DNA of 64,000 nt from Bacteroides sp. (GTDB lineage: Bacteria > Bacteroidota > Bacteroidia > Bacteroidales > Bacteroidaceae). Numbering within the stretch: position 1 is the stretch's first letter; every line of letters starts with the position of its first letter. The DNA lies in assembly GCA_015060735.1 (NCBI GenBank), contig SUXX01000006.1, positions 1-64,000 of the forward strand. Reading direction: 5' to 3'. Shown in pieces: positions 15,296 through 22,606 of this stretch. Both the position numbers and the translations under genes were made by a program. The notes under the pieces were generated by a model. That model was not told the DNA's origin. It did not search any database and saw nothing but the letters and a program-made list of their open reading frames with translations.

Positions 15296-15303
15296 AAATC
15301 TAG

Positions 15304-15387
15304 TGAAGGAAATGAGACTCGAACTCACACGACATAATTGTCACTACCCCCTCAAAGTAGCGCGTCTACCAATTCCGCCATTCCTCC
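15304..15387 (-). tRNA. tRNA-Leu (GAG)
   Basis: An 84-nt tRNA with a long variable arm as expected for leucine. The acceptor GGAGGAA pairs with TTCCTTC, the discriminator is A, and the anticodon loop TTGAGGG gives anticodon GAG. CCA is not encoded. Confidence 0.93.
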
Positions 15388-15419
15388 AGATTCGGTTGAA
15401 TACCTTACGCTTTTTTCCG

Positions 15420-15500
15420 TGCCCAGAACAGGACTCGAACCTGCACGTCTCTCAACACTCGCACCTGAAACGAGCGCGTCTACCATTCCGCCACCTGGGC
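15420..15500 (-). tRNA. tRNA-Leu (CAG)
   Basis: An 81-nt tRNA with a long variable arm. The acceptor GCCCAGG pairs with TCTGGGC, the discriminator is A, and the anticodon loop TTCAGGT gives anticodon CAG. CCA is not encoded. Confidence 0.93.
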
Positions 15501-15528
15501 ATGGTTCCGTAAGGATTCTCCTTTTTTG

Positions 15529-15601
15529 AGCGGAAAACGAGGCTCGAACTCGCGACCCTAACCTTGGCAAGGTTATGCTCTACCAACTGAGCTATTTCCG
15601 C
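15529..15601 (-). tRNA. tRNA-Gly (GCC), copy 2
   Basis: 73 nt, the same sequence as the copies at 15223 and 15625, anticodon GCC. Confidence 0.95.
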
Positions 15602-15624
15602 AATAAAAAGTTGTTCAATAAGTG

Positions 15625-15697
15625 AGCGGAAAACGAGGCTCGAACTCGCGACCCTAACCTTGGCAAGGTTATGCTCTACCAACTGAGCTATTTCCGC
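15625..15697 (-). tRNA. tRNA-Gly (GCC), copy 1 (promoter-proximal)
   Basis: 73 nt, anticodon GCC, identical to the other two Gly copies. It is first in the transcript, about 30 nt after the predicted start site. Confidence 0.95.
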
Positions 15698-15736
15698 AAA
15701 ATCCGCTTTCGGAAGTTGTTTTCCCGATTGCGGATG

Positions 15737-15767
15737 CAAAGGTAGACCTTTTTCTTGAATATCCAAA
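15737..15767 (-). promoter_or_regulatory. Promoter of the tRNA operon
   Basis: On the minus strand this reads TTTG, a 19-bp spacer, then TACCTTTG, an exact consensus promoter. Confidence 0.85.
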
Positions 15768-15795
15768 ACTTTTTTGAAGTTTTTTATCTAATCTC

Positions 15796-20403: not shown

Positions 20404-20435
20404 TGTGGCAGATAATCTGCCACATTTTTATTTTT
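20404..20435 (+). terminator. Terminator of the M15 peptidase gene
   Basis: A perfect 9-bp stem (TGTGGCAGA and complement) with a 3-nt loop, followed by TTTTTATTTTT. It abuts the stop codon of the convergent HU-like gene. Confidence 0.8.
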
Positions 20436-21051
20436 CTGCCACCGTTGCGTAATGTCCGTTATCCGGCATGTACACCGGATTCTGTCTGGTAGATACATTC
20501 TTCAGCTTGCCTTCTTCCACCAGTTTTTTGAGGATGCGAAGGGCGGTGGACTTTACCTGCATGCCGTGAAATTGGAATTGTCGGCGGGTAAGGGTTTCGT
20601 TCGTTGCAAAATATTCCGTCAGTATTTGGTCGATGGCTTCATCCGTCATCGGCATGGAGTGTGGTTTGTTTTTCGAACGTACTATTTTCTGTTTCTTCAA
20701 ATGCTTTTTCAATTCATTGTCTGCCCGATAAGATATTGACTTGAACTCCACGTTTTCCGAACGGATGGCATGAGGGGTGCGTACCTCTTCCTTGCATTGC
20801 AAGTTCACTTGAAAAGAGCCGATGCCTTCCAGATGCACTTTGTTTCCTTCACCCAGGTGTTGGGCCAGTTTAGTACCCAGTGTGATAAGTACGGCCTTCA
20901 CATCGGCAATGGTCAGCGAACTTTCCCTTTGGATTTCTTTGGCTATTTGGTCCGATGAAATTCGGTTGCCTGATATTACTCGTGCATGATAACGCTTCTT
21001 GTTCGTACCCTCTGAGTTCGGGTTGCGGTAAAATTCATATTCTATGGACAT
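20428..21051 (-). CDS. HU-family DNA-binding protein (HU-HIG type) with C-terminal winged-helix-like region
   Basis: Residues about 1-125 match the HU-HIG fold seen in Bacteroidales: MSIEYEFYRNPNSEG at the start, a helical pair around ISSDQIAKEIQRESS, then VHLEGIGSFQVNL and a basic arm. A linker rich in lysine (KKHLKKQK) leads to a C-terminal region (about 135-200) with MTDEAIDQILTEYF and RRQFQFHGMQVKSTALRILKKL, which looks like a helix-turn-helix followed by a wing. That second domain is inference. Genes of this type commonly sit near VirE-like ATPases in Bacteroides genomes. Here the gene is divergent from one, with a palindrome array between them. Confidence 0.82.
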   Translation of the reverse strand: MSIEYEFYRNPNSEGTNKKRYHARVISGNRISSDQIAKEIQRESSLTIADVKAVLITLGTKLAQHLGEGNKVHLEGIGSFQVNLQCKEEVRTPHAIRSENVEFKSISYRADNELKKHLKKQKIVRSKNKPHSMPMTDEAIDQILTEYFATNETLTRRQFQFHGMQVKSTALRILKKLVEEGKLKNVSTRQNPVYMPDNGHYATVAEK

Positions 21052-21075: not shown

Positions 21076-21103
21076 CAAAGATAGTAAAATTCGTGCAAAG
21101 ATA
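21076..21103 (-). promoter_or_regulatory. Two tandem -7 boxes upstream of the HU-like gene
   Basis: TATCTTTG occurs twice on the minus strand, at 21076-21083 and 21096-21103, exactly 20 bp apart. The nearer gives a leader of about 18 nt. The -33 position of the farther box would fall inside the first palindrome of the 22-bp array, so a bound factor could block it. Confidence 0.6.
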
Positions 21104-21120
21104 CAAGTGTTTAAACCGTC

Positions 21121-21198
21121 TCACTTTAGTGACGAGGTCGTTTCACTTCAGTGAGTCAATCGTTTCACTCAAGTGACGCGACCGACTCACTCTAGTGA
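21121..21198. repeat. Four 12-bp palindromes on an exact 22-bp period
   Basis: TCACTTTAGTGA, TCACTTCAGTGA, TCACTCAAGTGA and TCACTCTAGTGA begin at 21121, 21143, 21165 and 21187. The inverted arms TCACT/AGTGA are perfect in all four, while the two central bases differ. The 10-bp spacers are partly conserved, ending TCGTT, TCGTT and CCGAC. A period of two helical turns puts all four sites on one DNA face, as in iteron or operator arrays. The array lies in the 304-bp gap between the divergent HU-like and VirE-like genes; the rest of that gap is AT-rich. Confidence 0.92.
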
Positions 21199-21355: not shown

Positions 21356-22606
21356 ATGATTGAAAGATTAAAACAGATTTTGAGAGAATGGTTGGGTGAA
21401 TCATTTGTTTTACCCATCGAAAACACAGTCGTTGAGAACACATCCATTGAGACGCCGTCGGTAGAAGAAAAAGTTAAAAAAACGGGATTGTTACAAAGTT
21501 TGGAGGATTATTTGTTTTCCGTCTACAACTTCCGTTTCAACCTCCTAACGGAGCAGACGGAATATGCCCTTAAAGAGAGTGCGGACTTCCGCCCGGTCGA
21601 TCAACGCATGTTGAACACGCTTTGCATGGAAGCACGAAAGCAGGGCGTTAATTGTTGGGACAAGGACGTGAGCCGACTTCTTCTCTCGCAAAGCATCGGT
21701 GACTATCACCCGTTTCGTCATTACATGGAGACGCTTCCGGCTTGGGATGGCATTGACCGTGTGTCCCAACTGAGTCAGAGAGTATCAGACAAACCGTTGT
21801 GGGTCAAAGGGTTTCATCGATGGATGCTGGGGATGGTTGCCCAATGGATGGGATTGGATGGACAATGTGCGAATGCGATGGCTCCTCTGCTTATCAGCAC
21901 CGAACAAGGGCGTTGCAAGTCCACATTTTGTTCGATTCTGTTGCCTACGGAACTTCAACGCTTTTATATAGATAAGTTTGACCTCACCAGTGTGAGCGGA
22001 TGCGAGCAAAAGTTGTCGCTTTTCGGACTTATCAACATGGACGAGTTCGATCGTTATAGCGTGCGAAGTATGGCAACGCTGAAGAACCTGATGCAACTTA
22101 AAAAACTGACTTTCAGAAAGTCACATCGGGCGTATTATAGCCAGTTACCAAGGATTGCTTCCTTTATCGGGACAAGTAATCAAAAGGAATTGCTGACCGA
22201 CACCACGGGAAGCCGACGCTTTCTTTGTGTGGAAGTAAAAGAAAAAATAGATTGTTCTACGCCCGATTATCCTCAACTTTACGCTCAATTGAAGGCCGAA
22301 TTATTGGCCGGCGACCGCTATTGGTTTACTTCGGAAGAAGAACAGGAAATACAAGAGAACAATCGCATGTATTACAAACATTCGCCCGAACAAGATGTCT
22401 TTTTCCGTTGCTTTCGCTTGCCATCGGGGGAAGAAGAAGGACTGAAACTATCCTCAACCGAAATCTTTTGTCAGTTGCAAAAGAAATTTCCGGCTGCTTT
22501 CCGTGGCCGAAGTGTCAACTACATGGGGCGTATGTTGCAAGCGATGGGAGTAAAACGTGAACGTACCCGCGAGGGGAGTATGTATCGTGTCGTACCGGTG
22601 GTGTGA
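21356..22606 (+). CDS. VirE/VapE-type P-loop ATPase with C-terminal DUF3874-like domain
   Basis: Residues about 40-330 form the VirE/VapE primase-helicase-like ATPase: YNFRFNLLTEQTEY near the N-terminus, NCWDKDVSRLL, then a P-loop TEQGRCKSTFC. The loop has C187 where GKS/T loops have glycine (K188, S189). Walker B is LINMDEFDRY with D229 and E230. The sensor/arginine region is IGTSNQKELLTDTTGSRRF (R near 300). The C-terminal part (about 355-416), with KLSSTEIFCQLQKKFPAAF and NYMGRML, resembles DUF3874 and looks like a winged helix. Related proteins occur in phages, satellites and integrated elements, often with a primase that is absent here. The function is unknown. No mobile-element integrase is seen nearby. 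Confidence 0.82.
   Translation: MIERLKQILREWLGESFVLPIENTVVENTSIETPSVEEKVKKTGLLQSLEDYLFSVYNFRFNLLTEQTEYALKESADFRPVDQRMLNTLCMEARKQGVNCWDKDVSRLLLSQSIGDYHPFRHYMETLPAWDGIDRVSQLSQRVSDKPLWVKGFHRWMLGMVAQWMGLDGQCANAMAPLLISTEQGRCKSTFCSILLPTELQRFYIDKFDLTSVSGCEQKLSLFGLINMDEFDRYSVRSMATLKNLMQLKKLTFRKSHRAYYSQLPRIASFIGTSNQKELLTDTTGSRRFLCVEVKEKIDCSTPDYPQLYAQLKAELLAGDRYWFTSEEEQEIQENNRMYYKHSPEQDVFFRCFRLPSGEEEGLKLSSTEIFCQLQKKFPAAFRGRSVNYMGRMLQAMGVKRERTREGSMYRVVPVV

Follow-up and report, generated by a model that had tools for sequence, protein, structure and literature searches.

Palindromic arrays of 22-bp period and their association with HU-HIG winged-helix genes in gut Bacteroidales

The array and its flanking genes

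In a 64-kb stretch of the genome of Bacteroides sp. GCA_015060735.1 (hereafter the window), the palindrome TCACTnnAGTGA occurs four times between two divergent genes (Table 1), with exact matches starting at positions 21121, 21143, 21165 and 21187. Units are 12 bp long, every arm is perfect and the steps measure exactly 22 bp, in line with the original prediction, which had been made from the letters of the window. That prediction also held that only the two central bases vary; the arms are indeed perfect, but the 10-bp spacers vary as well, with CG recurring at spacer positions 3-4 and 7-8 as judged by eye. These four units are the only exact matches in the window. With up to two mismatches there are 25 matches versus 27.75 expected by chance, and degenerate copies therefore do not exceed the chance level.

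Table 1. Features at the array locus, with positions in the window
Feature	Position	Strand	Basis
Palindrome array, four TCACTnnAGTGA units, 22-bp period	21121..21198	no strand	Exact-match search of the window and of the own genome
HU-HIG gene, 207 aa; HU domain ~1-125, winged helix ~133-200, recognition helix 167-179; proposed array reader	20428..21051	-	Pfam, AlphaFold2, fold matches
Putative -33 promoter element of the HU-HIG gene, TTG; distance to the array 14 bp	21104..21106	-	Same geometry at paralog L004; consensus assumed
Putative -7 promoter element of the HU-HIG gene, TATCTTTG	21076..21083	-	Promoter-like pair TTG-N20-TATCTTTG; consensus assumed
Divergent gene for a VapE-like ATPase with DUF3874 (416 aa), starting 157 bp away from the array	21356..22606	+	Pfam 6e-28 (VapE-like) and 7e-23 (DUF3874); recurrent, optional partner

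Both flanking genes are of the predicted types. The minus-strand product matches the HU-HIG family PF18291 at 4e-33 (114.6 bits, cut-off 26.2), as do 41 further proteins of our 42-member alignment, and it has the architecture named in the Pfam text, an HU domain with a fused wHTH, Ig or glycine-rich part. Since the PF18291 model also matches ordinary HU, membership is best judged by the fused winged helix. An AlphaFold2 model based on the 42 sequences (mean pLDDT 88.2, pTM 0.55) resembles HU for residues ~30-121 and winged helices of IdeR, IclR, MarR type and Z-alpha for residues ~133-205. Among 25 of 28 families listed in a Pfam scan of the 42 members there were HU families, generic winged-helix matches and weak others, with no homology to ParB, Noc, SlmA or MatP. 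HU-type proteins are usually regarded as sequence-poor DNA benders, and HU clades were reportedly surveyed by the Aravind group in 2017. In the open-access full-text literature we found no description of the array, nor of a binding site or function of HU-HIG proteins.

The array had been thought to overlap the -7/-33 region of the HU-like gene. Instead, the pair of elements that resembles the -33/-7 consensus lies past the array edge. Similar pairs are found 14-15 bp past the array in five HU genes, and a recognisable promoter adjoins the array in seven of 46 HU genes, compared with 3% of shuffles.

Recurrence of arrays upstream of HU-HIG genes

The available assembly of the window's own genome (2,447,998 bases, 96 contigs, 80.9% complete) contains nine exact TCACTnnAGTGA sites, all within three arrays on contigs 60, 62 and 74; the reversed control pattern gives two. 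All three arrays have four units when units with one mismatch are admitted, and two of them lie 69 bp upstream of HU-HIG paralog starts. One of the two is on contig 62, in front of a paralog 88% identical to the window protein, and no VapE gene was found among the frames listed beside it. For the array on contig 60, no HU gene was found in the surrounding 8 kb. This last array (L005:619-696), of the TCACT type, is located about 600 bp from what by eye appears to be the beginning of a 16S rRNA gene at a contig end.

Two adjacent exact TCACTnnAGTGA units were found in 79 stretches among 84,980 species genomes, the titles of which are Bacteroidales save for one Calothrix, one Anaerolineae and one Anaerotruncus bin. 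Counted with up to three mismatches, and with some arrays cut by stretch ends, 54 arrays have four units, 12 have three, eight have five, two have six, two have two and one has seven. The inner units of the seven-unit array (L035:23-166) are near-identical, which suggests recent unit duplication.

In a family sample of 301 Bacteroidaceae genomes, the TCACT form (at most one mismatch) is present in 15. The generic form, three CACn4GTG units in 22-bp steps (at most one mismatch), is present in 72, with diverse arms. Its reversed control gives single matches in six genomes and 19 matches in G143, which hence holds some other 22-bp repeat. A profile built from seven array-adjacent HU-HIG proteins detects relatives at E 1e-20 in 132 of the 301 genomes. 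Generic arrays occur in 21 of the 23 genomes in which an HU-HIG match reaches 212 bits, versus 51 of the 278 others. Sixteen of the 72 array-bearing genomes have no match to this profile at E 1e-20; the nine of them scanned with PF18291 all match, as do nine of 14 control genomes, for example E. coli, and the best such match in G157 is a 99-aa frame of ordinary-HU size.

The association was quantified gene by gene with an array score for four palindromes at 22 bp (maximum 40, threshold 31), applied to the region within 350 bp upstream of HU-HIG genes from a non-redundant set of 89. Of this set, 61 were classed as long, that is at least 190 aa with at least 250 bp upstream. A score of at least 31 was obtained for 46 of the 61 long genes, the kind of recurrence among relatives that is expected of an operator; in the other 15 no array was found upstream. 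The 61 include three loci (L036, L046 and L192) apparently sampled solely for their array and some mutually orthologous genes, and the profile was itself seeded from array-adjacent genes. Shorter HU-HIG genes score at least 31 in five of 26 cases. As controls, 1700 Markov shuffles reach at most 29, and downstream regions reach 31 in two of 87 cases. Arms are of the types TCACT, TCACA, TCACC, TCACG, CCACG, CCACC, CCACA, ACACG and others, and differ even between paralogs of one genome; in three of the 46 array-bearing loci (L223, L208 and L226) they fall outside the CAC type.

The VapE gene is a less constant neighbour. Of the 46 array-bearing long HU loci, 11 have a VapE-DUF3874 gene on the far side of the array. 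Eight more loci, including two ortholog pairs and L018/L019, combine VapE and an array with no HU match in the DNA examined. L018 and L019 are two VapE genes on contig 78 of the own genome, preceded by 22-bp arrays with GAGAC-type arms GAGACTAGTCTC (scores 33 and 32). Near L240 and L241 of P. vulgatus (genome G293) there is none of the listed HU-HIG matches. Several further VapE matches are without an array, among them L016 and L017 of the own genome. Exclusive HU-VapE pairing was therefore rejected, in view of the contig 62 paralog without VapE, of L025, L054, L018 and L019 with VapE and array yet no HU match, and of the arrayless L016 and L017. The pairing is real and optional. The expectation that the array tracks the HU-like/VirE-like pair thus held as far as the pair recurs; occurrence of the motif without the pair counts against the pair as a unit and leaves HU-HIG standing as the binder.

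The spacing at these loci is compatible with plain transcription regulation, the main rival to the interpretation developed below. HU-HIG would then be a repressor or activator, and the arrays would be operators for itself, for VapE and for a small regulon, and elsewhere neighbour operators or titration decoys. Consistent with this, both own-genome HU starts are at the same distance from their array, the promoter-like pair recurs at 14-15 bp, and 144-167 bp separate the array from the start of VapE at 13 of the 19 loci where VapE has an array (69-308 bp at the other six), VapE starts being approximate, as estimated from alignments. We consider this rival somewhat unlikely, given the placement of the arrays described below.

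Joint change of arm base and recognition helix

Orthologous HU-HIG proteins of P. vulgatus (L156) and of genomes G249 (L158), G062 (L159) and G080 (L161) are 82-92% identical. The L156/L158 pair differs from the L159/L161 pair by three fixed substitutions, R102K, S168T and S171N, and residues 168 and 171 fall in the recognition helix predicted from the AlphaFold2 model. The first arm base changes together with these residues. In the arrays that front the HU genes themselves, T occupies this position in 11 of 16 cases for the L156/L158 pair, and C in 15 of 16 for the L159/L161 pair. The same holds for scattered arrays of class C (TTAAYCAC), compared after exclusion of three of 20 loci that score below 31: T in 28 of 40 half-sites (five arrays, G293 and G249) versus C in 72 of 95 (12 arrays, G062 and G080; p = 6e-7), where half-sites are not independent because the T/C switch is one evolutionary contrast. 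A smaller count on 15 loci gives T in 26 of 32 versus C in 67 of 88. One P. vulgatus array, L236, runs counter to the trend, being C-rich (6/8).

Because the contrast also covers arrays far from the gene, a shared reader is a simple explanation. In a mutual-information scan across 43 proteins, the winged helix did not stand out. The HU-like protein with its second, winged-helix region, already put forward as a natural candidate binder by the original prediction, is the best candidate: since arrays recur upstream of most long HU-HIG genes and the arm base shifts with recognition-helix residues, HU-HIG likely reads the array. Judged from sequence, the HU-HIG winged-helix family is large and diversifying, and the array is most likely one of its cognate sites.

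The mode of binding that we infer from the geometry is as follows. The HU domain would mediate dimerisation of HU-HIG, and the resulting pair of winged helices would face the inverted half-sites within a 22-bp unit; with four units two helical turns apart, four dimers could stack on one face of the DNA. An array beside the HU-HIG gene itself would provide autoregulation, which is likely, and at times co-regulation of the divergent VapE gene. Paralogs with altered winged helices would read altered arms, allowing several systems to coexist in one genome. Array-type landing pads are widespread in gut Bacteroidales, and each kind apparently has an HU-plus-winged-helix reader of its own.

Scattered arrays and the chromosome axis

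Many arrays lie away from HU-HIG genes, and their placement is intergenic. None of 99 arrays, a set with a few adjoining HU-HIG or VapE and some orthologous to one another, falls within genes called by a codon-based caller; with a cruder list of open reading frames, 28 of 96 touch frames, often short ones. Gap type could be assigned to 76 arrays, the other 23 being at stretch edges, and was compared with 154 gaps of at least 120 bp. Arrays are over-represented in convergent gaps (20/76 vs 20/154, p = 0.016) and under-represented in divergent ones (14/76 vs 50/154, p = 0.029), the remaining 42 arrays and 84 comparison gaps being co-directional. This distribution argues against plain regulation, as do the flanking genes of ten P. 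vulgatus and five other arrays, which include two VapE genes and mixed housekeeping genes. One IS66 transposase gene and one phage-type integrase gene also flank arrays. In favour of plain regulation, four of the six P. vulgatus class B arrays scanned (L348, L349, L350 and L352) adjoin glycan-degradation genes, encoding a BNR-repeat protein, a TonB receptor with GH30, a sulfatase with an arabinofuranosidase, and GH127, and these neighbours could form a regulon.

The excess in convergent gaps, together with palindromic units and inverted outer flanks, would also fit arrays that act as RNA or DNA hairpins, for instance as bidirectional terminators between convergent genes. In one genome with three arrays, flanks indeed pair better within than across arrays. 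In six groups of at least eight arrays, however, outer flanks pair within arrays about as well as across them, so clear compensatory change is absent, and the recurrent position upstream of HU-HIG genes also counts against hairpins. Rfam matches at gathering scores in 28 loci number six (four tRNAs, a SAM-II riboswitch and an sRNA), none of them at an array. We regard the hairpin reading as extremely unlikely.

At least 23 P. vulgatus arrays pass the score. They fall into at least four spacer classes, and in three of these an array fronts an HU-HIG gene. The array set of G249 closely matches that of P. vulgatus. Array loci of the two genomes correspond in 20 of 21 cases, with L020 lacking a match and the match of L349 being doubtful, as its counterpart is the L355 partner again, reversed. 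Between these orthologous arrays (L349 included), 53 of 800 arm positions, 57 of 600 spacer positions, 45 of 160 central positions and 360 of 4716 flank positions differ. Arms thus change at 6.6% versus 7.6% for flanks and are not clearly slower, whereas the two central bases, which differ about four times as often as the arms, are free relative to them.

These conserved positions bear on the suggestion, raised in the original prediction, that the array resembles iterons and might be an origin. Arrays would then be iteron-like origin or end sequences of a mobile or replicating HU-VapE element, and solo arrays would mark places from which the genes had since been lost. VirE/VapE-type ATPases (PF05272) have been connected with the primases of mobile elements (PMC5862659). 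Direct repeats of 22 bp are iteron-like, and the distribution of arrays among genomes is patchy. Against a mobile module, the same array positions are kept in two species, and viral contigs gave no match to the exact two-unit TCACT pattern. A tblastn search with the HU protein retrieves six unannotated 'Bacteriophage sp.' contigs and ten plasmid records, all below 60% identity. Because many arrays sit at stable chromosomal positions, a single mobile origin fits poorly. Plasmid iteron origins likewise have several direct repeats of ~22 bp near DNA-binding and ATPase genes; here, in contrast, each unit is palindromic, arrays are many and chromosomal, and most of those examined have neither gene beside them. 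Rather than being confined to the side of an initiator gene, arrays without an HU-HIG or VapE match in the DNA examined are common. A mobile or replication module is very unlikely, and iteron function, like the hairpin reading, is disfavoured.

A further Bacteroidales comparison is the BrickBuilt MITE of Porphyromonas gingivalis, which also has intergenic tandem repeats of similar unit length on the chromosome (PMC4596501). Its repeat is a 23-nt sequence, AGAYCATARTATCCTCTCRTRTG, not the window palindrome, and one element has 18 full repeats; the terminal inverted repeats resemble their counterparts in local IS elements (PMC4596501).

The position of arrays along the chromosome was assessed from GC skew sampled every 260-280 kb, which places the P. 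vulgatus origin at ~1.53 Mb and the G249 origin near coordinate 0; the skew of G257 was unusable, and the results rest on the former two genomes. Strict sites of classes A and B lie within 0.54 of the half-chromosome from the origin in P. vulgatus (mean 0.24, n=18, p ~5e-5) and within 0.63 in G249 (mean 0.27, n=18, p ~2e-4). For strict sites of all classes (n=23 per genome) p is ~0.002 and ~0.008, respectively. These p values assume uniform placement, class labels were assigned by eye with one site reassigned to class B, and, since the arrays of G293 and G249 are largely orthologous, origin clustering is essentially one observation. Four sites were left out of the strict counts: G293 596773 and G249 4428958 (single-unit, loci score 26), G293 4117052 (28) and G249 371122 (29). 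Class C is intermediate and not clustered. Class D, with CCACC-like arms, is near the terminus (G293:C1:3718211; G249:C1:2165744 and 2747009; weaker, G293:C1:4117052). An HU-HIG gene for class D was not found; among eight further HU regions only L342 has an array, which is a different one (score 32).

The scattered copies suggest an undescribed way to mark or organise the chromosome, and with moderate confidence we favour this over a plain regulon. Copies of the same class would serve as chromosome-marking sites, two classes being concentrated in the origin half of the P. vulgatus chromosome. Taken jointly, a cognate HU-HIG site, autoregulation, and multi-class, sequence-specific chromosome marking by HU-type proteins form, from comparative sequence evidence, an on balance probable account. 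A stronger version is an address code, in which paralogous HU-HIG proteins, each with a rapidly diverging array class, would mark and organise or segregate zones (near the origin, mid-arm and near the terminus in P. vulgatus), with VapE proteins as optional effectors; this we consider doubtful and unlikely.

The logic of such sites would be comparable to that of ParB/parS, Noc or SlmA sites, without homology. In these systems and in MatP/matS (ParB/parS, Noc/NBS, SlmA/SBS and MatP/matS), too, a single class of protein goes with a modest set of palindromes on the chromosome, and a further possible parallel is the bias of some classes along the origin-terminus axis. Unlike them, the arrays described here have a putative reader with an HU domain plus winged helix instead of those folds, usually comprise four units, fall into several classes per genome, and include one site beside the gene of the reader. 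If this reading is right, a large HU-derived family whose arrays are sequence-specific and co-evolve with it would assign a role to many genes annotated as 'HU family DNA-binding protein' in gut Bacteroidales, natural orthogonal protein-site pairs would be on offer, and Bacteroidales chromosome organisation would be directly testable in P. vulgatus.

Elsewhere in the window, at 15300-15770, overlapping short frames repeat one peptide, AEIAQLVEHNLAKVRVASSSLVFRS; they are probably a tRNA gene cluster read in the wrong frame.
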